This document shows, piece by piece, positions 4,911 to 28,079 of a DNA stretch of 64,000 nt. Both the position numbers and the translations under genes were made by a program. The notes below the pieces were generated by a model that did not search any database, had not been told where the DNA came from, and saw nothing but the letters and a program-made list of their open reading frames with translations. The stretch's first letter is position 1; every line of letters begins with the position of its first letter. The stretch is from a virus. The DNA is taken from the IMG/VR virus record IMGVR_UViG_3300021520_000002, positions 124,001 through 188,000 of that record. One strand, written 5' to 3'.

Positions 4911-5185
4911 CTTTCTTCCAAAGGAATTGTACTCCAAATCTGATCTAGTTTTTCTTTATATTTAATATAATTTTTTTCTTCTTCTATTTGTTTATCATTT
5001 TTTAATTTTTTTAAACTTTCTATTATTGGTTTAGCTAGATCATCTGATAATATTAAAAAAGGTTTAAAATAATATCCTTTTCCAAATTCTTTTGTTTCTA
5101 TTAAATTACTATCATGATCATGAATTTTTGTTACTGTTCCCCAAAGACAATATGGGAAACGATCATATTTCCAAAAAGCTGTCAT
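4907..5185 (-). CDS. Hypothetical protein, 92 aa
   Basis: Start at ATG 5185, preceded by GAGGAGTAATAAA; an in-frame ATG at 5200 is possible. The protein begins MTAFWKYDRFPYCLWG, has a beta-rich N-terminal half (a possible small barrel) and a charged helical C-terminal half. No family recognised. Confidence 0.65.
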   Translation of the reverse strand: MTAFWKYDRFPYCLWGTVTKIHDHDSNLIETKEFGKGYYFKPFLILSDDLAKPIIESLKKLKNDKQIEEEKNYIKYKEKLDQIWSTIPLEER

Positions 5186-5196
5186 TTTATTACTCC

Positions 5197-5385
5197 TCAT
5201 TTTATCATTTCAGTTATAAATGCACCAATATGAAATATTTTAGTTTTAATTTCTAATATATCGATAGTACTTAATTTGTATGTTAATCTATCTTCGATTA
5301 CTATAATAACATCATCTATAAATGAATCATCAACTATTTTATCTTTTAAAGTATTAGCAAAAACTTGTCGTTGTTCTTTAGTCAC
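5197..5385 (-). CDS. Hypothetical protein, 62 aa, GTG start
   Basis: The real start appears to be GTG at 5385. AGGA sits 7 bases upstream and the codon overlaps the preceding gene's TAA. A longer frame to 5520 reads antisense-like hydrophobic text through the neighbouring gene's Gly/Ser/Cys tail and is rejected. The protein reads VTKEQRQVF, then alternating strands and helices. Function unknown. Confidence 0.6.
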   Translation of the reverse strand: MTKEQRQVFANTLKDKIVDDSFIDDVIIVIEDRLTYKLSTIDILEIKTKIFHIGAFITEMIK

Positions 5386-5908
5386 TGGAACATCCTGAAT
5401 CTGAACTTCCAGAATCACAAGAATCTGAACTCGAACAATCTGAATCCCAACTTCCAGAAGCTCCACCTCCACTAAATTCTCCTCCACCAGATGAAATACG
5501 TTCTGTTTCAGAATCATCATCTAAACTTGATAATACAATTCCTGTTGCAACTGTAGCTAATAACAAATTATCAACTAATTCTTCTTCAGGTTTATTTTGA
5601 TTTATTGCCGATAGATTATTTTTATCACCATAAACTGGTATTGGAATTGGATAAACCATAACATCATATCTATCTCTATTTGCTCCTCTTTCTTCAGTAA
5701 TATCTAATAAATCAACATGAATTTCTGAAATAGAATATTTATATATTTCTTTAACATAATCTGTAAGTTCATCTAAAGTACCTGTTAAACTTTTATCTGA
5801 TGAAATAATATATAATGAATCATTCCAAGGAAATCTTTGTGTTAAATTTCTAAAAATTTTAATATTATCTACTTCTTTTACTATTTTATGATTTGGTTGT
5901 TCGTACAT
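5378..5908 (-). CDS. Protein with Gly/Ser/Cys/Asp low-complexity tail, 176 aa
   Basis: The N-terminal ~110 residues look like a small alpha/beta domain (IISSDKSLTGTLDELTDYV). A hydrophobic stretch LLLATVATGIVLSSL follows, then a low-complexity end of SGGGEFSGGG followed by Ser-Asp-Cys repeats (six Cys in about 35 residues). Such tails occur on bacterial membrane-anchored TPM/YgcG-like proteins. The hydrophobic segment is short, so membrane insertion is uncertain. Confidence 0.7.
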   Translation of the reverse strand: MYEQPNHKIVKEVDNIKIFRNLTQRFPWNDSLYIISSDKSLTGTLDELTDYVKEIYKYSISEIHVDLLDITEERGANRDRYDVMVYPIPIPVYGDKNNLSAINQNKPEEELVDNLLLATVATGIVLSSLDDDSETERISSGGGEFSGGGASGSWDSDCSSSDSCDSGSSDSGCSSD

Positions 5909-5925
5909 TTATTCTCCTTATTATT

Positions 5926-6123
5926 TTATTTTATAATATCAACAATTAATAATCGAGTGTAAGGAAAATCTGCTGCATTTCTTGGAATAATAGCAGCATA
6001 ACCAACGTCATTTTCTGTGTTGTTGATAATTATTCCTTCTCTACTACTTGATATAGATAGTTTATATTTATTTGATATAACGGCAAGATCTCTACAAAAA
6101 TCTATAACTCGTTTTTCATCCAT
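5926..6123 (-). CDS. Hypothetical protein, 65 aa
   Basis: Begins MDEKRVIDFCRDLA and ends near YTRLLIVDIIK. It shares the opening MDEK with the neighbour at 6123-6317, whose stop it overlaps by one base. Single-domain alpha/beta pattern; no family recognised. Confidence 0.65.
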   Translation of the reverse strand: MDEKRVIDFCRDLAVISNKYKLSISSSREGIIINNTENDVGYAAIIPRNAADFPYTRLLIVDIIK

Positions 6124-7284: not shown

Positions 7285-8154
7285 CTATTTCTCCTTTTGA
7301 TTTTTTATAAGCTCAACAATTCTACCACAGGTAGTACTGAAGAGAGTATTCCATTGAGTCGTTCGATCAATTTCAATTTTAAATTGTTCCATTTTTTGTC
7401 TTATTAATTCTTTATCATAACTATGAGGAATACATAAACCATTTGTTTTTGATATATCTAATTGACCAAATAATTTTGGATTTTTAAATGAGCAATAAAT
7501 GAATATTGCCGCTGAACCTATTGAAAATGTTTCTTTACCAATAATATGATTATACATTTTCATTCCATTGATAAACATGTCTTTTTTAGACCATTTACCT
7601 GGGAATGAAATAAAATTAAGATCTAAGTTATCACAACATTCATTGAACTGATTATGAAAATCTGTAACAATGTTTGTTAGATTTAATAATTTTTCTTTAA
7701 TATTTATTTCAGGATTTAGAACTATATCTTCAATCATTTCTTTTAACATATCCTGAGTAATTTTAGAAGCATCAGATTTAACAACCTGAATACCTGTATA
7801 TTTTACTTTTGGTTCTTTAAATATTTTACCTTTTTTAGCTAAAATTTTATATGCATAATTCTTTTTCACATCTAGAAACATAATAGAATCAAACAACATT
7901 TCAGATTTAAAGAATGTTGTATTATTAACAATTGGAATATTTGATTTTGGTAAAAGATACTCATTAAGGTATTTTAAAATAGCAGTATTAATTCCATCAG
8001 CCGCTTTATCGGCAAATTTCATTTTTTCTTCTGTTGTTAATTTTTCTGAATCTTTATTCGGAACAACTACAAAAATACTATCTGTGTCACCATATAAAAT
8101 GTTCTTTAGATAACCAGATTCTTCTACTTTGTTGTAAAAATCTTTAGGTAACAT
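7285..8154 (-). CDS. Family B DNA polymerase, C-terminal piece (motif C and thumb)
   Basis: 289 residues. Motif C YGDTDS, with the catalytic Asp pair, lies at 21-26. A thumb-like region with KYTGIQVVKSD follows. Exonuclease domain, motif A and motif B are absent. They occur in the protein at 25974-28079, which ends exactly where this one begins in an alignment of the family. Together they should form one replicative polymerase. A comparable break between motifs B and C is known for the split polymerase of Methanothermobacter, and split genes 43 occur in some T4-like phages. It has its own RBS and start, and no split-intein sequence is visible. Confidence 0.88.
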   Translation of the reverse strand: MLPKDFYNKVEESGYLKNILYGDTDSIFVVVPNKDSEKLTTEEKMKFADKAADGINTAILKYLNEYLLPKSNIPIVNNTTFFKSEMLFDSIMFLDVKKNYAYKILAKKGKIFKEPKVKYTGIQVVKSDASKITQDMLKEMIEDIVLNPEINIKEKLLNLTNIVTDFHNQFNECCDNLDLNFISFPGKWSKKDMFINGMKMYNHIIGKETFSIGSAAIFIYCSFKNPKLFGQLDISKTNGLCIPHSYDKELIRQKMEQFKIEIDRTTQWNTLFSTTCGRIVELIKNQKEK

Positions 8155-11360: not shown

Positions 11361-11528
11361 TTAGTCATCATGTTTATATTCGTCAATTTTAACTAATTCA
11401 GTATTATTACAAACAGGACAACGTTTATCATCTTTTTCATCTACTGGATAATATTTTGATTCGCAAAGAGCACACCAATAATGAAAACCAAAATCTCTCC
11501 AATTTATTTTAGTTCTATCTAATTCCAT
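11361..11528 (-). CDS. Zinc-ribbon small protein, 55 aa
   Basis: Too short for many callers, but coupled to the upstream homing endonuclease by a TAATG junction. WCALCES and RCPVCNN give a classic two-CxxC zinc ribbon. Function unknown. Confidence 0.6.
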   Translation of the reverse strand: MELDRTKINWRDFGFHYWCALCESKYYPVDEKDDKRCPVCNNTELVKIDEYKHDD

Positions 11529-12190
11529 TATATACCCTTTATCTGATTGATTCTTGCAAACTCACCATGGTATTGAATAGCAGCTGTATTATATGCTATA
11601 GCCGCATCTTTTGGATCATCGAAAAGTCCTAAATAAATTCTCTTTTTATTAAAGTTAATATAAGACATCCATTTTTTATTAGATTTATGCAAAATCACAC
11701 CTTTATAACCACTTTTATTATCTGTTCGTAATTTACTATTTTGTTGATTTTGCAATTCTGTACATATTCTTAAATTATCTTCAAGATTATTTAATCTATT
11801 TGTATCTTTATGATCAATTTCATATCCTTCTGGTACTATTTGTCCAGACATTCTAATAATAGCTTGGTGTAAAGTTATATTATGATGATTACCATCTTCA
11901 TCAATATAGTTACATGAAGAATATTTTTGTTTATTTAAACACCATTTATACTTTTCTATTTCAATTTTGTATTTAAGATCAAAAATAGTTTCAGCAACTT
12001 CAATATTTTTATTATTATATAATTTCATATGACAAATATTGTCTTCAATGATAATTTCATTTCGATCTAATCTATTTCTTTGATTATTTGAAGTTAAATC
12101 TCTGTGATTATAAAATTGTTGATAATGTTTTTTACAATATCCTTTAGCTTCATATTCTTGATTACAATTAGGAATAGAACAAAATTTCAT
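11528..12190 (-). CDS. HNH-AP2 homing endonuclease with N-terminal zinc finger
   Basis: 220 residues, clearly paralogous to the gene at 9874-10434. It has the same HNH core (EIDHKDTNRLNNLEDNLR) and AP2-like end (SGYKGVILHKSNKKW, YLGLFDDPKDAAIAYN). It adds an N-terminal module (CSIPNCNQEYEAKGYCKKHYQ) with a C-C-C-H metal pattern typical of phage HNH proteins. It lies just downstream of the UDG-like gene. Confidence 0.9.
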   Translation of the reverse strand: MKFCSIPNCNQEYEAKGYCKKHYQQFYNHRDLTSNNQRNRLDRNEIIIEDNICHMKLYNNKNIEVAETIFDLKYKIEIEKYKWCLNKQKYSSCNYIDEDGNHHNITLHQAIIRMSGQIVPEGYEIDHKDTNRLNNLEDNLRICTELQNQQNSKLRTDNKSGYKGVILHKSNKKWMSYINFNKKRIYLGLFDDPKDAAIAYNTAAIQYHGEFARINQIKGI

Positions 12191-13840: not shown

Positions 13841-14236
13841 TTAAAATGGAACGTCTGCGAATTCGTTAGCTGGACCAGAACCGCTTGGAGCTGCAGCTGT
13901 TTGATTTGGTGTTTCTGTTGATAACATTTTCATTTCTGATGCTATAATTTCCCAGACCTTATGTTTAACTTTACTTGTATCTTCCCATTCTCTAGTTTTC
14001 ATTTTTCCTTCGATATAGACTAGTTTACCTTTTTTAAGATATTGACCAGCTATTTCACCCAATTTTCTCCAAAGAATAACTGTAAAATATTCAACACTTG
14101 ATTGTTTATTTCCAGCTTTATCTTTCCACTGTTCATTACACGCAACACCAATTTTACATACTGCTTCACCAGCTGGTGTGTATCTGAGTTCTGGATCTGA
14201 TGTTAATCTGCCGATAATCATTGCTTTGTTCAACAT
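13841..14236 (-). CDS. ssb: Single-stranded DNA-binding protein (first of two)
   Basis: 131 residues with a bacterial-type OB fold. It opens MLNKAMIIGRLTSDPELRY, followed by VEYFTVILWRKLGEIAGQYL and LVYIEGKMKTREW, all typical of SSB. A short Ala/Pro/Gly linker leads to NEFADVPF, like the acidic DDIPF tip that recruits partner proteins. It should coat single-stranded DNA during replication and repair. Ends at a strong terminator. Confidence 0.95.
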   Translation of the reverse strand: MLNKAMIIGRLTSDPELRYTPAGEAVCKIGVACNEQWKDKAGNKQSSVEYFTVILWRKLGEIAGQYLKKGKLVYIEGKMKTREWEDTSKVKHKVWEIIASEMKMLSTETPNQTAAAPSGSGPANEFADVPF

Positions 14237-15640: not shown

Positions 15641-15670
15641 AAGGAGTTAAATTTTAGTTTAACTCCTTTT
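15641..15670 (-). terminator. Intrinsic terminator closing the ubiquitin-like operon
   Basis: AAGGAGTTAAA and TTTAACTCCTT form an 11-bp stem, flanked by T-rich sequence. It lies about 60 bases after the E1 stop. The segment between (15671-15726) also has a weak CTGCT/AGCAG pairing and no gene. Confidence 0.8.
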
Positions 15671-15726
15671 TTTAGAAAATATTGTTACTGCTTAATTATT
15701 TGTTTATTGTAGCAGGTTCGCTTTCT

Positions 15727-16587
15727 TTATATTTTATAATTGGAATATCCTGAGGCGTTAAATGTGATTATGTTTGGCGGCAAAATATCTTCTGTAAATA
15801 TTCTTTGAATAGAACAGAATAATAGTGTTGCTGCAAATGTATTAATTGCTTGTGATTGATCACCGAAGAAAACACAACCTTCATTATTTTCTTGTTGTTT
15901 TTCTTTTTTAAACATTTTTTTAAAGTCTATCGGCGCTTGATCTTTTCCAGAAATTTCTAATTTTTCAGTATTGAACCATGTGGTCACAATTTGTCCATTA
16001 TAGAGATTATTGCCACTATCAATATAAATTATTGGTGGCTTATAATGTTTAAGAATATATTCTTCATTAATAATATTATCATCTTTATTAATAATAGGTC
16101 TTAATTCTTCTGGAAGATCATGTTCACGATAATCAATTTGTAGTTCTGATAAAGTTTTATAGATTAATTTTCGAGTTTTATTATTATCAACACACCCAAC
16201 AATTATAACTAATAATTTTTTACCATCATATGCAAAACCACCATTTCTAAATATAATTTTATATTTAAAAATATCATCTCCTAATATTGTTTTAATTTTT
16301 TTAGGAGTAGTGAATCTTTCAACTATTCCTGTTAATTTTACATCATTATAACAACATCTATTAATAAGAGCTGTTGTTTTAGCTTTACTAATATCCCAAT
16401 TATGAAAATTTTGTCTTAGAATATTTCGTTGTTCAACATGATCATCATCTATTAGATAATATTCAATAGGAACTCTAGATCTAATATTACCAACAAATTT
16501 ACTAAGTGAAGGTACCAACCATGAGCCAGTACCTCCACATCCAACTTGTATGATAAATATTTTATCATAATCTGTTATAACACTCAT
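15727..16587 (-). CDS. E1-like (ThiF/PRTRC-type) ubiquitin-activating enzyme homologue
   Basis: 286 residues. The Rossmann loop VGCGGTGS (15-22) binds ATP. IDDDHVEQRNILRQNF (46-61) carries the acidic strand end and Arg residues of the E1 family, and GCVDNNKTR (131-139) is the conserved VDN segment after strand 4. A late Cys (EGCVF, Cys238) sits where PRTRC ThiF proteins have a conserved Cys. In this superfamily the enzyme adenylates the C-terminal Gly of a ubiquitin-like protein. There is no separate second catalytic-cysteine domain. The start overlaps the JAMM gene's stop (ATGA), giving translational coupling. Last gene of the operon. Confidence 0.88.
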   Translation of the reverse strand: MSVITDYDKIFIIQVGCGGTGSWLVPSLSKFVGNIRSRVPIEYYLIDDDHVEQRNILRQNFHNWDISKAKTTALINRCCYNDVKLTGIVERFTTPKKIKTILGDDIFKYKIIFRNGGFAYDGKKLLVIIVGCVDNNKTRKLIYKTLSELQIDYREHDLPEELRPIINKDDNIINEEYILKHYKPPIIYIDSGNNLYNGQIVTTWFNTEKLEISGKDQAPIDFKKMFKKEKQQENNEGCVFFGDQSQAINTFAATLLFCSIQRIFTEDILPPNIITFNASGYSNYKI

Positions 16588-17438
16588 ATTACAAAACCAC
16601 GACTTAAATATTCTTCAATATCATCATCAATATCAACATTAGGATGATCAATACTTGATTCAAATATTTTTCCAGTTCTAAGATTCTGTAAAATTTCACT
16701 TACTGGTTTATCTTTTTCTTCTTCTTTTCTCTTTAATGTTTCATCTACAATTCTATTAAGAATTATAAGATTTTTATTATCTATTTCAGATTTAGGAATT
16801 TGCATATCGAAAATATCCATAAATCCTATTTCAACAAACTGTATTCCAGTCCATAATCTGAATTTCTTTTCTACTTGAAAAACATCTGAATCTTCATTTA
16901 ATTTGCCGATAACTCCAAAGAAACACATTATAGCATTTCTTTCATCTTTATCATCAGTATCTGAAAAATTAGCACTCATAGAATGATGACTATGAATCTG
17001 TAAATATCTTATATAACTCATGTTATTTTCCATGCTACCATATTTGTAATTAGAAGCTCCTGGGGAGACATCTTGTTCCATAATTTCTAAATGAAATTTT
17101 CTCGATGGTTTGTGATAGTATAAATTTAAAGTCAATTCAGATTTAATTTTACCATATATATATTTAAACATTTCAACAATCTGAATGAAATATTTTATAG
17201 ATGGCTTTGGAAGATTAAGTTTAAAAATTGTATTACCATCAATATTATTCAAATTGCTGTTGTTATAATCAATATTTAATTTATCATAAATTATTGCAAA
17301 TTCATTTTTTAATACATTATATATACCGTTACCGGCAAAAACTATATTTTTAAATTCAAGATCTTTTTCAAAATTTAAACTATTATCATAAAAATGTATA
17401 CTTGTTAAACTACCTTCATTGAAGTGCTTTAGATTCAT
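16584..17438 (-). CDS. JAMM/MPN-type metalloprotease (PRTRC protein A-like)
   Basis: 284 residues. The zinc motif is complete: HSH at 149-151, seven residues, then Ser159, two residues, then Asp162 (HxHx7SxxD). A Glu near 118-121 could be the catalytic acid. Such enzymes cleave ubiquitin-like proteins from targets or trim their C-termini. The N-terminal ~100 residues resemble the extra domain found in PRTRC system protein A (inference). It overlaps the E2-like gene by 23 bases and the E1 gene by 4 bases. Confidence 0.85.
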   Translation of the reverse strand: MNLKHFNEGSLTSIHFYDNSLNFEKDLEFKNIVFAGNGIYNVLKNEFAIIYDKLNIDYNNSNLNNIDGNTIFKLNLPKPSIKYFIQIVEMFKYIYGKIKSELTLNLYYHKPSRKFHLEIMEQDVSPGASNYKYGSMENNMSYIRYLQIHSHHSMSANFSDTDDKDERNAIMCFFGVIGKLNEDSDVFQVEKKFRLWTGIQFVEIGFMDIFDMQIPKSEIDNKNLIILNRIVDETLKRKEEEKDKPVSEILQNLRTGKIFESSIDHPNVDIDDDIEEYLSRGFVI

Positions 17439-18255
17439 ATGTAAGTATCTCCTGTGGTATATTTGGACTTATTATAAAAATTGAAGGATCAATTTCTTCT
17501 GGATTTGTTTGACTTAAATAGTAAAATGCATCTAAAATAGATATTTGACTAAATTGTTTATTTAATACTTTTCCTTTTATAGATTCAATTTCATATGTTG
17601 TTTTTGCATCTTTTCCATATTGAAGATGAAATCCATAATGTTCATTGAAAGTTGTTGAAATAATTCTAACATATTGATTTTCTAAAGTGTTTAATTTATT
17701 TCCATTATAACCACCAAAACACATGTTATCCTGGTTTTCAGTATTTCCATATGGTAATCTATAATATGTATAATAATTATTTTTTGATTTAATTTTCATA
17801 AAAATTTTATTAGCTGAACTGACATCTCTATCAAAAACTTGCCCTAATATAAATAATTGAAATATTGGAAACTCACCAGAAATATTTGTAACAAGATTAC
17901 CCTTAGTTGCAGTAAATGTTTCTGTTTGAATTTCTTTAAAATCATTTATTAAAAATTTTTTATTATCAATTCTTATATTTAGAAAAATTTTCCGATAAGA
18001 TTCATCAAATAAGGGTGTAAATTGTTCTACATGATCATGTGTAAATTTTATATATCCATTGAAACATTTTTTCCAAGAAGTTTCAATTTCTAGATATTTT
18101 AAATAATTACCAACCATCTCTTCACTAATTACTATTGATTTTCCATCTTTTTCAACAATAAATTCTCTTGAATCTTTAATTGCATAAATTATATATTCAA
18201 ACGGATTAAGACCAACATCAACTTCTTTTATTATATTAAAAGAATATTTTTTCAC
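17416..18255 (-). CDS. E2-like protein (PRTRC protein B-like)
   Basis: 279 residues. The segment YYRLPYGNTENQDNMCFGG (about 164-182) resembles the E2-like active site of PRTRC system protein B, where an aromatic-rich strand, P-F/Y and N precede a conserved Cys. Cys179 is the candidate that would carry the ubiquitin-like thioester. The preceding FPIFQLFILGQV strand and the following helix fit the E2 fold. The assignment rests on this motif plus position between the UBL and the JAMM/E1 genes. There is one other notable Cys (64). Confidence 0.7.
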   Translation of the reverse strand: MKKYSFNIIKEVDVGLNPFEYIIYAIKDSREFIVEKDGKSIVISEEMVGNYLKYLEIETSWKKCFNGYIKFTHDHVEQFTPLFDESYRKIFLNIRIDNKKFLINDFKEIQTETFTATKGNLVTNISGEFPIFQLFILGQVFDRDVSSANKIFMKIKSKNNYYTYYRLPYGNTENQDNMCFGGYNGNKLNTLENQYVRIISTTFNEHYGFHLQYGKDAKTTYEIESIKGKVLNKQFSQISILDAFYYLSQTNPEEIDPSIFIISPNIPQEILTYESKALQ

Positions 18256-18267
18256 CTTCGCTCCTTT

Positions 18268-18717
18268 TTAGAAAACTATATCATCAATAATTAATTTATC
18301 TTTGTATTCTTCTTCTTGTGGTTTTGAAACTTCAACTTTTTGATCATCAATATTAATTTCAAAATTAGTAAATAATGAATGTGTGTTTTTAAATAATCGG
18401 TAATAATAATTAGCATCTCTTTTGTGAATATTTCTTTTTGATTGTGCATACACATCAAGATCTAAAATAAACATTTTTGATAAAAGATTTTTTTCTAATT
18501 CTTCTAATTTTTCAATAAATTCAGTACAAGGTAGATTTTGAAATAGTATTAATTTTTCTTTATATTCATGTCTAATCGGCTCTGATATAATTATCATATC
18601 AAATTTAGAAGCTTTTTTATTATATGCTACATGTGTTAGATCAGCAACACCGTTACGACAAGTTTTTTCAAATTCTTCATCATCAAATACTAGTGATCTG
18701 TATATTTGTTTTGTCAT
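18268..18717 (-). CDS. Unknown protein in ubiquitin-like operon, 149 aa
   Basis: Not recognised. Starts MTKQIYRSLVFDDEEF, contains two Cys (TCRNG and PCTEF), mixed strands and helices, and an acidic C-terminus (PQEEEYKDKLIIDDIVF). It is translated within the conjugation operon between another unknown and the E2-like gene, so it may be a substrate adaptor or target. It overlaps the upstream gene by 35 bases. The RBS AAGGA lies 9 bases from the ATG. Confidence 0.75.
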   Translation of the reverse strand: MTKQIYRSLVFDDEEFEKTCRNGVADLTHVAYNKKASKFDMIIISEPIRHEYKEKLILFQNLPCTEFIEKLEELEKNLLSKMFILDLDVYAQSKRNIHKRDANYYYRLFKNTHSLFTNFEINIDDQKVEVSKPQEEEYKDKLIIDDIVF

Positions 18718-19207
18718 CGATTATATCCTTTATAAGTTTATTAAAATTTAAAATTATAAATATTAGTTTACTAATTCGATCTTGTTGTTTAATTTCATCA
18801 ATATGAATTTTTTTGAGATCGGCAATTTTTTGAAAAATTATTTTTCTTTTATCTAAAAATTGATATGTTTTGTGTATATCCCAAGTAGTTGGTAATCTAT
18901 TACGAGCATAGTTATAACTATTATAATAATAAGTTGGTGTTCTAAGACGAAACACATCAGAAATAATACTATGAAAATTTTCAGCTTTACTTTTTAATGT
19001 ATATGTTATTGTGCTTATATCAATATATTTAATAAAAGTATTTATTAAATTTTTTTTAAAATATTCTTTTAATAATTTGATAAATATTAATTGATCAACT
19101 ATTTGAATATTATGAAAATAATCTCTTACTTGAATAACCATGAACATATCAAGAATTGAAAAATCGTTTTGAAAATCTGTTATTTGTATTTTTTCATTTA
19201 TCAGCAT
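18683..19207 (-). CDS. Unknown helical protein in ubiquitin-like operon, 174 aa
   Basis: Mostly helical, basic in the middle (FRLRTPTYYYNSYNYARNR), with long hydrophobic helices and no Cys. Its place after the UBL gene is where PRTRC cassettes carry their F protein, but I see no sequence match I would defend. It begins after a hairpin that separates it from the UBL gene. Confidence 0.75.
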   Translation of the reverse strand: MLINEKIQITDFQNDFSILDMFMVIQVRDYFHNIQIVDQLIFIKLLKEYFKKNLINTFIKYIDISTITYTLKSKAENFHSIISDVFRLRTPTYYYNSYNYARNRLPTTWDIHKTYQFLDKRKIIFQKIADLKKIHIDEIKQQDRISKLIFIILNFNKLIKDIIDDKTNIQITSI

Positions 19208-19228
19208 TTATCATCCTAATTAAAATTT

Positions 19229-19263
19229 CCAATTGGGACACTCTTATTGAGCATCCCAATTGG
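19229..19263 (-). terminator. Intra-operon hairpin, probable attenuator
   Basis: CCAATTGGGA and TCCCAATTGG form a 10-bp stem, extended inside by partial pairing. It lies between the UBL stop and the next gene of the same operon. No promoter motif follows, so downstream genes depend on read-through; the hairpin probably sets UBL above enzyme levels. Confidence 0.65.
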
Positions 19264-19273
19264 ATTTAGTTTG

Positions 19274-19657
19274 TTAACCTTTTGTACCAGCTGTTACAGC
19301 AAATGCAATTGTTTTTACACCATTAGATTCTGTAATCTTGACTTTCTCTTTTACAATTTCCTTGAAATAACTGGACAACATATCAAATGCTTGATCTACT
19401 GTCAACTCTTTTTCCACCGTTTTAATTACGTTGTTATTAACAACAAGAGATGTTTTTACTTTTGGAGCAGGTGGAGCTTTTGGAGCTGCTGCTTTTGCTG
19501 GGGCTTTCTTTCCACTTACTGGAAGAGATCCTTCAGCTTCTGTAAATTTCTTCTTACAAATTTTACAAATAAATAACTGTTCACCAGCTTTGTTAAAACC
19601 CTTCTTTGTTACTTCCGCGCTTGTTTTGCAATTCGGACAATACATAATTGTTGCCAT
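19274..19657 (-). CDS. Zinc-ribbon fused to a ubiquitin-like protein (PRTRC protein C-like)
   Basis: 127 residues. An N-terminal zinc ribbon (CPNC 7-10, CKIC 31-34) is followed by an Ala/Pro/Lys linker (about 49-67) and a 60-residue beta-grasp-like domain. The end is FAVTAGTKG; PRTRC protein C also ends in GTKG, and a terminal Gly is what an E1 activates. The enzymes follow in the same operon (E2-like, JAMM, E1). In other systems the UBL is conjugated to a target; the fused zinc ribbon is an unusual addition that may bind nucleic acid or a protein. Codon use is richer in G+C than its neighbours, suggesting high expression. Own promoter, RBS AGGAGGCAG. Confidence 0.75.
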   Translation of the reverse strand: MATIMYCPNCKTSAEVTKKGFNKAGEQLFICKICKKKFTEAEGSLPVSGKKAPAKAAAPKAPPAPKVKTSLVVNNNVIKTVEKELTVDQAFDMLSSYFKEIVKEKVKITESNGVKTIAFAVTAGTKG

Positions 19658-19708
19658 TTCTGCCTCCTATTTTTTGTTTGAAATAAAATATAAATCTTAA
19701 TTCAATCT

Positions 19709-19726
19709 AATTATTTCTATATGAGA
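19709..19726 (-). promoter_or_regulatory. Promoter of the ubiquitin-like operon
   Basis: Minus-strand TCTCATATAGAAATAATT, two changes from consensus, about 52 bases upstream of the UBL start. No other copy lies inside the operon, so all six genes likely share it. Confidence 0.6.
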
Positions 19727-21251: not shown

Positions 21252-21821
21252 TTAAATTGTTTTCATAAATTCTTGATAGATATATAAATCTTTAACAATA
21301 TATATCTCTTGAATCTGTGGAAAATCATTTTTAGTTTGAATATACCATGAGAAGTAAGCTTCTGCAATAGGAACATCTTTCTTTAAATATATTCCATTGG
21401 TTCTTTTTCTCATTTGAATAACATCAATATATAATGTTAAAACTAAATTCTCAATAATAATATGGTCAAAACTTTCTGATTTCTGATCTGGAATCGACTG
21501 ACAATAATAACTATCAGATTTCACAAATATATTATCAAATATTCCACTAGTTATTTCTTTACTTCCAGGTTCTGTTATATTAAGTTTTAAACCAGCTGGA
21601 TATGATATTTTAATTCTAGGTTTATAATCTACAGTTATAACATTTGGTGATATTGTTGTTGCATTTGATAGATTCATATCATGTGTAAGAATAATTGATG
21701 CTATATCTGGCATTTGTGATTCAACTATACATGAATCTGTTGGTGGTGTACAAAAAATTATATTTTTCGTTTTATCGATTTTATTCAAAAATTCTGGATC
21801 TATCTCTTTTAATATTTTCAT
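21252..21821 (-). CDS. Hypothetical protein, 189 aa
   Basis: Beta-rich protein starting MKILKEIDPEFLNKID. CTPPTDSCIVES contains two Cys. The C-terminus reads QIQEIYIVKDLYIYQEF. It overlaps the stop of the second SSB gene by 4 bases (ATGA), so a role with single-stranded DNA is conceivable but unsupported. Confidence 0.7.
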   Translation of the reverse strand: MKILKEIDPEFLNKIDKTKNIIFCTPPTDSCIVESQMPDIASIILTHDMNLSNATTISPNVITVDYKPRIKISYPAGLKLNITEPGSKEITSGIFDNIFVKSDSYYCQSIPDQKSESFDHIIIENLVLTLYIDVIQMRKRTNGIYLKKDVPIAEAYFSWYIQTKNDFPQIQEIYIVKDLYIYQEFMKTI

Positions 21822-22252
21822 GATAAACTCTCCGTTTGATTTGGGTATTCTTCAGTTAATTCTTCTCCAATATCATCATCTTCAATAATTTCCACATTTT
21901 CATTTTCATGTGTAATATGAATTGCATTTGCCCATTTTTTAACTTCAGAAGCTTTAATTTCAGCAACTGGTATTTTAATACCATCTTTTTCTCTGTTTCT
22001 GTAAGATAAAGCTCCTTCAATTAATACAAGTTGACCCTCTTTAATACCTCTAACAGTATTTTCTGCTAACTTTCCCCAACAAACAATTCTATGCCACTTT
22101 TTAAGTTTCTGTAATTCTCCACTTTTGTTTTTATAATGATCTATTGTACTGATAGAAAAGTTTGTAACTGAAGTATTATTCTTTGTATGTCTCAGTTCTG
22201 GTGTTGCTCCAACATTACCTACCAATATTACTTTGTTGTAATTTCTAGACAT
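21818..22252 (-). CDS. ssb: Single-stranded DNA-binding protein (second of two)
   Basis: 144 residues with the SSB OB-fold pattern: VILVGNVGATPELRHTKNN, KKWHRIVCWGKLAENTVRGI, LVLIEGALSYRNRE. The acidic tail ends EEYPNQTESLS rather than in the DDIPF-like tip of the other SSB at 13841. The two are clearly different in sequence, so they are not a recent duplication. Possibly specialised for replication versus recombination or annealing. Confidence 0.92.
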   Translation of the reverse strand: MSRNYNKVILVGNVGATPELRHTKNNTSVTNFSISTIDHYKNKSGELQKLKKWHRIVCWGKLAENTVRGIKEGQLVLIEGALSYRNREKDGIKIPVAEIKASEVKKWANAIHITHENENVEIIEDDDIGEELTEEYPNQTESLS

Positions 22253-25973: not shown

Positions 25974-28079
25974 TTATTTTAAACTATTCAGATACATTTC
26001 TCCAATAATTTGTGCTATCTTAAGAGTTAATCTTCCTTGAACTGTAATTGCTTTTGCTAATTGTTTATTACTAAATCTATATGTACTCATTCCGAAGAGA
26101 CCATATGTTGTGTTCATAGTGATCTTAATAGCACTTTGTCTCATGTCATAGAATGAATACTCATCTGAATCTTCATTAAATGAATCTCTTTTCTTTTCAT
26201 ATTGATTTCTTAAATTCTTTAAGTTCTTTAGAAATTCAATAAACAATCCTTCTTTAACATCATGTTTATAAAATAAACACCCTGATAAGGTTACCATAAG
26301 ATTTTTTTCTTTTATATAATTAGCAAAAGATTTTATTGGAACCTTTTTAATATTAAGTGCTGGTTGTAAAACATTTTCAATAATATATAAATATTCTATA
26401 TCTTTTGGAGTTTCATTATTTAATAAATAATCATTACAAAAACTATTATACTCTTTACTACTTGGATGAATATCATCAAATAGATCTAATAAAGTTATAA
26501 AATATCTTTTTAATATTATATATTCATCAATAAATTCTGGAGCAAATAATTGATCTAAAGTTTTATTACAATATTCTATTTTTCTAAGTAAATATCCAGC
26601 TATTAAATAACAGTTCTGTAGATATTCACCTTTGTTTTGTGGTTTTAATTTTTCAGTATATTTTCCTGCCATTTCAAATATAGATGTGTATGTTTGTATC
26701 GGCAAGGTCTGGTTTGGTAATTTCTTTTTTTGAACAAGAAACTGTTCCAGATGTGTTATAAATTTATAACATAATGGATCTATAATTCTTCCATATAATG
26801 TATCAAAACTTATATTACTTTGAATAATCATACTTGGATATAGACTTGAAGCATCTAAATCAATTAGTATTCCATCTTTTGAAGTTAGCACCTGTGCATG
26901 AGCGTCTTTTACATACGCCCCAGGGAACCTTCCAGTTACATTTCTAAAAGTTTGTTGATTAATTTCTTTTATAGTTCTTTTCATACCTTTTGGGATATAT
27001 ACTCCAACTAAATCATCTTCTGAAATTGCAACATTACCTTCTTCAACAAGTCCAAATCTTACAAATTGATCACTATTGTTTAATTCATAATTAACATAAG
27101 TATCAAATAAAGCTGCTGAACCAGTTAATGATTTACTAAATGGGGTTTTCATTAATCTTCTTAAAAGATTATGAGATTCAATATGTCTTAATTTTTTATT
27201 TAATCCTACAGTTAGAGCAACATCTATTATATTATATAATAAAAAGTTAACTGGATCTGTTTCATAAAATGTATCAAGAGACATACCTTCATCTTTATAT
27301 TCTTTCTTTTTTAATCCAAGTTCAGCTTCAGCTACCCAATCAAGAGAATAACTTGATTGTTTATCCCCATAATTTAGACCACCATCTTCCCTTGGTTTGT
27401 ATAAATGTAAAAGATCTGATATCGGCATTTCTGGAATTTGAATGAAAACTTCATCTCCACCTCTTTTATAGACTTTCACAGTTCCAAATCTAGAAAGAAT
27501 CTTGCCGATCTCATTCTCATTTTTATTCAATAAATTACCTAATCTAAAATATGTATAAGGTAAATCAAAGTTATCAGAAGACCATCCAGATAAAATACTG
27601 GGATCAATTCTTTTAATTTCAGTCCAACAAGTTCTTATTAATTCTATCTCCGACATAAATGCTTGAATTTGTATTTCTTTATCTTCAGTAATATATCCTA
27701 ATGTTACCATTTCTTCTTTATATTTCTTTTCTAATTCTTTAAATTCACTTTTATCTGGAAACTTATTAATATTAACTTTCTGTAATAAGAAATAAGATTT
27801 ATAAATCTTTTCAAATGAGTTATAAATCGTTATAGCTGATATTGGATATTTAGCTGCAATAGGTTTAGGAAATTCACCAATATTAGACGAATAAACTTCA
27901 ATATCAAAGAACAATATATTTAATTTTTGATCTTTATCAAAATTATCTTCTGGATTTTTAATATAATAATCTATCGAATAAAATTGTTGATAATCAACAT
28001 CAAGACCATATATGTTATATGGAGTAACTTGACCATTTTCTAATAAACTATTAAGTTCTTGAATAGCTAGTTCTTGCAT
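25974..28079 (-). CDS. Family B DNA polymerase, N-terminal piece (exonuclease, motifs A and B)
   Basis: 701 residues. Exo I FFDIEVYS (59 and 61 are the Asp-Glu pair), Exo II SGWSSDNFDLPY (about 165-176), palm motif A DLDASSLYPSM (about 403) and motif B KITMNTTYGLFG (about 661) are all present. It stops at EMYLNSLK, before motif C. Motif C and the thumb are on the protein at 7285-8154, nearly 18 kb away. The two halves probably associate as the replicative polymerase. No intein, so protein splicing is not expected. Confidence 0.95.
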   Translation of the reverse strand: MQELAIQELNSLLENGQVTPYNIYGLDVDYQQFYSIDYYIKNPEDNFDKDQKLNILFFDIEVYSSNIGEFPKPIAAKYPISAITIYNSFEKIYKSYFLLQKVNINKFPDKSEFKELEKKYKEEMVTLGYITEDKEIQIQAFMSEIELIRTCWTEIKRIDPSILSGWSSDNFDLPYTYFRLGNLLNKNENEIGKILSRFGTVKVYKRGGDEVFIQIPEMPISDLLHLYKPREDGGLNYGDKQSSYSLDWVAEAELGLKKKEYKDEGMSLDTFYETDPVNFLLYNIIDVALTVGLNKKLRHIESHNLLRRLMKTPFSKSLTGSAALFDTYVNYELNNSDQFVRFGLVEEGNVAISEDDLVGVYIPKGMKRTIKEINQQTFRNVTGRFPGAYVKDAHAQVLTSKDGILIDLDASSLYPSMIIQSNISFDTLYGRIIDPLCYKFITHLEQFLVQKKKLPNQTLPIQTYTSIFEMAGKYTEKLKPQNKGEYLQNCYLIAGYLLRKIEYCNKTLDQLFAPEFIDEYIILKRYFITLLDLFDDIHPSSKEYNSFCNDYLLNNETPKDIEYLYIIENVLQPALNIKKVPIKSFANYIKEKNLMVTLSGCLFYKHDVKEGLFIEFLKNLKNLRNQYEKKRDSFNEDSDEYSFYDMRQSAIKITMNTTYGLFGMSTYRFSNKQLAKAITVQGRLTLKIAQIIGEMYLNSLK

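Follow-up and report, generated by a model that had tools for sequence, protein, structure and literature searches.

The closest described relatives of the operon analyzed here are the PRTRC cassettes (ParB-related, ThiF-related cassette) of plasmids, such as pMOL28 of Cupriavidus metallidurans, which are covered by the NCBIfam models TIGR03735, 03736, 03737, 03738, 03741, and 03742. They encode a ubiquitin-like protein (UBL; PRTRC_C), an E2-like protein (PRTRC_B), a JAMM protease (PRTRC_A), and a ThiF protein in the order ParB-E-C-F-B-A-ThiF, also with one or more fast-diverging genes between C and B. The operon studied here lies in a 64,000-nucleotide stretch of DNA (the window), bases 124001-188000 of the 285,572-base virus record IMGVR_UViG_3300021520_000002. 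Judged by its genes, the record is a large phage since it encodes a terminase, a DNA polymerase, helicases, a topoisomerase II, an RNA polymerase subunit, a clamp loader, and a ribonucleotide reductase. All six open reading frames (ORFs) of the UBL operon originally predicted at 15641-19726 of the window are found there on the minus strand, with short or overlapping junctions. In order of transcription they code for a zinc-ribbon/UBL fusion, a 174-amino-acid (aa) protein, a 149-aa protein, and homologs of the PRTRC E2-like, JAMM, and ThiF (E1) proteins (Table 1). The order, C-x-y-B-A-ThiF, is like that of the plasmid core.

The relationship to PRTRC and the component assignments made in the original prediction are supported by similarity to A, ThiF, C, and B and by the shared gene order. 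ParB and PRTRC_E had been reported as not visible, consistent with our searches: ParB_N had no match in the phage's own record or those of ten relatives (eleven in total, which may be incomplete), and PRTRC_E (TIGR03741) had none in its own genome. PRTRC_F (TIGR03742) also had no match in that genome, and two unrelated proteins are encoded in its position. Only ParB, E, and a recognizable F are without a counterpart. The cassette had been called reduced or divergent; divergent is apt, with all PRTRC scores of the window proteins below the curated cut-offs, but reduced is not, as the whole enzymatic core is present. Because that core was found while ParB, E, and F were looked for and not found, the operon is by its sequence a divergent, PRTRC-like, phage-borne variant rather than a PRTRC cassette proper. 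Further differences are the zinc ribbon on its UBL and its place in a separate phage clade marked by tandem UBL genes, a post-UBL hairpin, and a small partner protein.

Operon type 6d of Iyer, Burroughs and Aravind 2006 (PMC1779556) has the same five kinds of component (UBL, helical protein, E2-like, JAB, and E1), and likewise an E2 without the classical active-site His, a UBL with a conserved C-terminal Gly, and a rapidly diverging extra protein. Type 6d was described from bacteria, unlike the phage-borne window operon, and the phage section of the same paper covers the lambda/T1 tail proteins TAPI/TAPK, without E1 or E2. Tail assembly in lambda similarly involves a phage JAMM protein acting on a phage UBL, with gpK cleaving the UBL of gpI (conference report PMC12908700), but no E1, E2, or conjugation. 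Bil (BilABCD), CBASS Cap2/Cap3, and 6A-MBL also use E1, E2, and JAB parts for UBL or protein conjugation, and the Bil UBL is tandem and JAMM-processed (PMC11354881). These are bacterial anti-phage systems of other architectures, whereas the window has separate single-domain genes on a phage. With the operon proteins, PADLOC gave weak E1-domain matches to E1-E2 models and no match to a Bil architecture, a CD-NTase, or an MBL. Acinetobacter phage ME3 ('PRTRC system protein A', 'ThiF') and Bacillus phage KLEB27-3 ('PRTRC_A domain') belong to the same phage clade as the window operon; their records are annotated gene by gene, and the UBL, the E2, and the operon are not recognized there. In the open-access literature (subscription papers and preprints were outside the scope) we found no paper on phage PRTRC/UBL operons and no earlier description of three features of the phage clade: the tandem UBL genes, the post-UBL hairpin, and the partner protein ending in aromatic-[I/V/L].

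Table 1. Features of the operon, by position in the window
Feature	Position	Strand	Basis
Phage promoter-like motif CATATAGAAATAAT, 53 bp upstream of the UBL start codon	19710..19723	-	motif enrichment
UBL protein, 127 aa, C-terminus AGTKG exposed without processing	19274..19657	-	PRTRC_C similarity, profile comparison
N-terminal zinc ribbon (CPNC...CKIC, residues 1-43) fused to UBL	19529..19657	-	NF050000
UBL (beta-grasp-like) domain, residues 66-127, ββαββ, GTKG end	19277..19462	-	AlphaFold model, hhalign
Hairpin with T-rich tail directly 3' of the UBL gene	19228..19264	-	-26 kcal/mol, z -8
174-aa protein, fast diverging, in PRTRC_F position	18683..19207	-	no family match
149-aa protein ending IDDIVF, in position of the small partner protein of phage relatives	18268..18717	-	no family match
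E2-like protein (Prok-E2_D/PRTRC_B-related), 279 aa, GTG start; PYGN-x7-C, predicted catalytic Cys179 at 17719-17721	17416..18255	-	conservation, family matches
JAMM/JAB protease (PRTRC_A-related), 284 aa; HxHx7SxxD at 16953-16994, predicted catalytic Glu101	16584..17438	-	PRTRC_A
E1/ThiF-like activating enzyme (PRTRC_ThiF-related), 286 aa; predicted catalytic Cys238 at 15874-15876	15727..16587	-	PRTRC_ThiF, Pfam ThiF
Intrinsic terminator closing the operon	15641..15668	-	-11.9 kcal/mol, z -4

Conservation of the enzymes and the UBL

The operon very probably encodes a working phage cascade for UBL conjugation and deconjugation, a divergent relative of plasmid PRTRC. The predicted catalytic residues of all three enzymes are intact in the window and almost invariant over 52-55 non-redundant loci. 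The JAMM protein matches PRTRC_A (TIGR03735) with E=2.9e-10, below the curated NCBIfam cut-off, and also Prok-JAB. Its HxHx7SxxD, first noted as perfect, is real (H149, H151, S159, and D162), and these residues and an upstream E101 are kept in 54-55 of 55 relatives. In Acinetobacter phage ME3, the JAMM gene (L003:1730-4840) is interrupted by about 2 kb in which a tRNA and several ORFs lie, and the annotated PRTRC_A is the first half only. The E1 matches PRTRC_ThiF (TIGR03736) with E=2.5e-13, again below the NCBIfam cut-off, and Pfam ThiF above its cut-off. All 55 relatives have its D134, C238, Q244, and N249. Profile matches of the E1 include NEDD8, SUMO, and ubiquitin E1s, ThiF, and Cap2, and its closest solved relative is PDB 9egc (5.8e-11).

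The UBL assignment and the GTKG end held up, with the end almost invariant among relatives and GxKG invariant in the UBL family; what had been missed is an N-terminal zinc ribbon, the protein being a fusion. The ribbon is of the IS1/InsA type (residues 5-43; NF050000, E=2.2e-7, above cut-off). Its Cys residues are intact in the window, L122, and L201; L050, from the subclade of the window, has lost them. By itself the window UBL matches PRTRC_C (TIGR03738) with E=0.078 over the last 54 residues, below the curated NCBIfam cut-off. Paired with the L050 UBL, it matches PRTRC_C-type and phage UBLs with an hhalign E=9.7e-7 (91% probability). The AlphaFold model (predicted local distance difference test, pLDDT, of 80.6) shows the zinc ribbon joined by a flexible linker to a ββαββ domain that ends in GTKG, a topology which together with the hhalign match supports beta-grasp similarity of the C-terminal region. 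As Lys is the penultimate residue of the UBL, trypsin would leave a single Gly at adducts rather than the GTKG remnant first proposed.

The Cys motif predicted for the E2-like protein is also real, with N171 and C179 kept in 52 of 52 non-redundant relatives. At the sequence level the alignable E2-like family of 56 is Prok-E2_D/PRTRC_B, with 43 members matching Pfam Prok-E2_D (best 1.1e-43) and 36 matching PRTRC_B (TIGR03737; best 6e-62). The window protein joins this family via its relatives only; aligned with the L050 protein, it matches PRTRC_B with an hhalign E=2.5e-4, at only 43% probability. The spacing from Asn to Cys is 8 in 45 of the 56 members and fits the eukaryotic HPN...C motif, with the His replaced, mostly by Phe. 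A profile search of the PDB lists RAD6/UBE2B at the active site, only at an E of about 0.6, and those with the JAB alignment and the plasmid E2 alignment returned noise only. A ubiquitin-conjugating (UBC) fold is putative. In L122 the E2-like gene is in two pieces with an in-frame stop between them (4946-5979), either an assembly error or a real split. Loci L029, L032, L036, and L038 have the E2-like domain inside an 845-865 aa protein, followed by a second E1-like gene, near an RNA polymerase subunit gene.

The same components could be read as a sulfur-transfer pathway, with the UBL a ThiS/MoaD-like carrier activated by ThiF and trimmed by JAMM for a modified nucleotide or cofactor. In its favor, the E1 has weak matches to ThiF and MoeB models as well, both chemistries are found among ThiF-like enzymes, and some operons pair JAMM proteins with sulfur carriers (PMC1779556). 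Yet the JAMM and E1 genes always have beside them the gene of an E2-like protein with invariant Cys and Asn, neither a rhodanese nor a biosynthetic enzyme is seen next to the operon, and E1s in E2-containing operons are without rhodanese domains (PMC1779556). UBLs in up to 6 tandem copies are a further point against sulfur transfer, and conjugation fits better because tandem UBLs and tails past GTKG give the JAMM protein a role in precursor processing. At the sequence level the E1 is not just a match to sulfur-transfer MoeB/ThiF standing alone but has a dedicated UBL partner, an E2, and a JAMM protein alongside. The combination of E1, E2, JAMM, a GxKG UBL, and polyUBL precursors thus favors conjugation, and we regard sulfur transfer as very improbable.

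It is even harder to credit a degenerate cassette without function. The strong divergence, the two middle genes without homologs, and the stop codon interrupting the E2 gene of L122 would be in keeping with decay, but at an identity to relatives of about 25-40% no catalytic residue has been lost, the frames are intact, and a promoter motif and terminators are present.

Phage relatives, UBL precursors, and partner proteins

Single-sequence searches of viral contigs with the window E1 or E2 found nothing and alignments were needed. Relatives are encoded by Vibrio phages D69, D181, and D148, Salmonella phage Arash, Acinetobacter phage ME3, Bacillus phage KLEB27-3, and dozens of IMG/VR contigs of up to 340 kb. 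Gene order is kept in dozens of phage loci, and because it is kept across dozens of independent operons, chance is ruled out as the origin of the arrangement. In a midpoint-rooted FastTree of the concatenated E2, JAMM, and E1 proteins, 40 phage-type operons are apart from 15 plasmid-type operons with moderate support (0.84), and the window and L050 pair at 1.0. On this tree the window operon falls in a phage-borne clade distinct from the plasmid-type operons. Loci with an E1 of about 180-225 aa and neither E2 nor JAB (many of L016-L049) were set aside as other ThiF-like proteins. The closest relatives are on two contigs from metagenome-assembled genomes, L122 (Bacteroidetes-named bin) and L123 (Neomarinimicrobiota), with JAMM and E1 38-41% identical. 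The flanking genes of L122 are the same as at the window operon. L122 is probably phage DNA that was binned together with a host, a weak hint of a Bacteroidota host.

Many of the phages have tandem UBL genes of 2-6 head-to-tail units, each ending in GTKG and some with hydrophobic tails. Loci with 3-6 units, some with such C-terminal tails, include L065:1764-2843, L010:2631-3737, L071:2919-3671, L099:3225-3974, and L004:1385-2176. The six-unit protein of L065 exceeds the curated PRTRC_C cut-off (54.7 vs 45.95 bits). In the subclade of the window, the UBL of a close relative ends in GTKG-VTII. Processing by JAMM would be a simple reading of the tandem and tailed precursors.

The two middle proteins had no matches in family searches and no convincing similarity to relatives, even where the UBL is about 50% identical. 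They resemble the 'rapidly diverging' extra protein of PMC1779556. That the middle genes are a split PRTRC_F was rejected, having no sequence support. In 28 of 31 phage loci the small protein between UBL and E2 ends in [FYW][IVL]; among background ORFs the share is 2.8%, and among 290 core proteins it is 0. The binomial statistic overstates this contrast, as the phage loci share ancestry. Otherwise dissimilar partner proteins with this end are found, for example, in L057, L072, L100, and L088; exceptions include the window (DIVF) and L050 (LLSL). The end is possibly a docking motif. Since the middle proteins diverge fast, their sequences suggest a role in target choice, and they would be the best candidates for target selection.

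Transcription signals and neighboring genes

The operon had been described as under one promoter and closed by a terminator. A phage promoter-like motif and an intrinsic terminator do bound the interval 15641-19726, but a strong hairpin after the UBL gene was overlooked. With ≤2 mismatches allowed, the promoter-like motif occurs 34 times in the window, against 9.1 +/- 2.7 expected; most of these sites are on the coding strand, and the motif is also upstream of the UBL gene in L122. Written as [CT]ATATAGAAATAAT, it has many sites in the window, mostly on the minus strand, and 44 in the genome compared to 5 in the control. Most phage loci have a hairpin after the UBL stop (mean z -2.74, 14 of 33 below -3), whereas the control site after the E2 gene does not stand out (mean z +0.36, 0 of 33 below -3). 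The window hairpin is the strongest (z about -8), and L122 also has a terminator hairpin there. It would be a partial terminator or attenuator by prediction and may pass only part of transcription to the enzyme genes; for that reason the UBL, the first product, is probably in excess over its enzymes.

The window operon is among replication genes. Two different single-stranded DNA-binding protein (SSB) genes flank it (window 13841-14236 and 21818-22252), and a Xanthomonas plasmid cassette is flanked by DnaN and SSB. These neighbors would fit a system that modifies the replication or partition machinery of the element itself, a use to which the name PRTRC alludes. We consider this unlikely though worth keeping in view: the lack of a ParB_N match argues against partition, the sister phage (L050) has its SSB gene well away from the operon, and the neighbors differ between clades. 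For the last two reasons SSB proximity was rejected as a general mark of function.

A role in virion assembly or maturation, with structural proteins tagged or the enzymes packaged as a parallel to the lambda gpK/gpI pair, is less likely still. The E1 and E2-like proteins of Salmonella phage Arash are annotated, on whatever basis, as 'structural protein', one sub-clade has the operon beside the terminase and neighboring genes, and in lambda the UBL of gpI is cleaved. The homologous cassette, however, is on plasmids, which make no virions, and the window operon is among replication genes and its sister between RNA polymerase genes. Also near the window operon is an HNH/AP2-type homing endonuclease-like ORF (window 11528-12190). 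The DNA polymerase of the window appears to be split, with parts at 7285-8154 and 25974-28079, about 18 kb apart, matching phrog_262 561-841 and 94-563.

Proposed cascade and its possible uses

Going beyond homology, intact catalytic residues, operon structure, and the phage clade, we infer an activity, a stoichiometry, and targets. The ThiF-like E1 would adenylate the GTKG C-terminus and then hold the UBL as a thioester on Cys238. The UBL would pass to Cys179 of the E2-like protein and from there to an amine, probably of a lysine, on targets. From its family chemistry, the JAMM protein would trim UBL precursors in relatives and remove the tag. The zinc ribbon would stay on every tag and could give it a surface that binds nucleic acid or protein.

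Several results weigh against such a cascade or its proposed use. The window E2-like protein by itself matched no family model, its AlphaFold model is poor (pLDDT 61) and has no E2 fold, and Foldseek against the PDB gave no E2 match. Foldseek with the UBL model found no significant match in the PDB or among viral structures. No E3 was recognized in the operon system, and the counter-defence use comes from the distribution of the operons alone.

That distribution, on large plasmids (which make no virions) and large phages with non-conserved neighbors, suggests a role from which large mobile elements of any kind would benefit. Our first choice of purpose, at a little under an even chance, is that host proteins would be tagged so that defence is disabled or takeover helped. 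Tagging of the element's own DNA-handling proteins would come second, clearly behind, and of virion proteins third. As a tentative broader picture, somewhat more doubtful than our first choice of purpose, large phages may run their own UBL pathway in infection, with poly-UBL precursors of up to 6 units, overproduction of the tag, a small aromatic-[I/V/L] adaptor and, here, a zinc-ribbon tag, reprogramming or disarming the host.

Bacterial UBL conjugation, whose working principle the window operon would share, is known with separate E1, E2, and JAMM proteins mostly from studies of anti-phage defence, whereas in the present case the predicted cascade belongs to the phages. The tandem UBL genes are a prokaryotic parallel to polyubiquitin precursors. 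Among the carriers are phages in culture, with Vibrio, Salmonella, Acinetobacter, and Bacillus as hosts, that are open to knockout and testing, and the long-unexplained PRTRC cassette becomes testable in a fast infection model.

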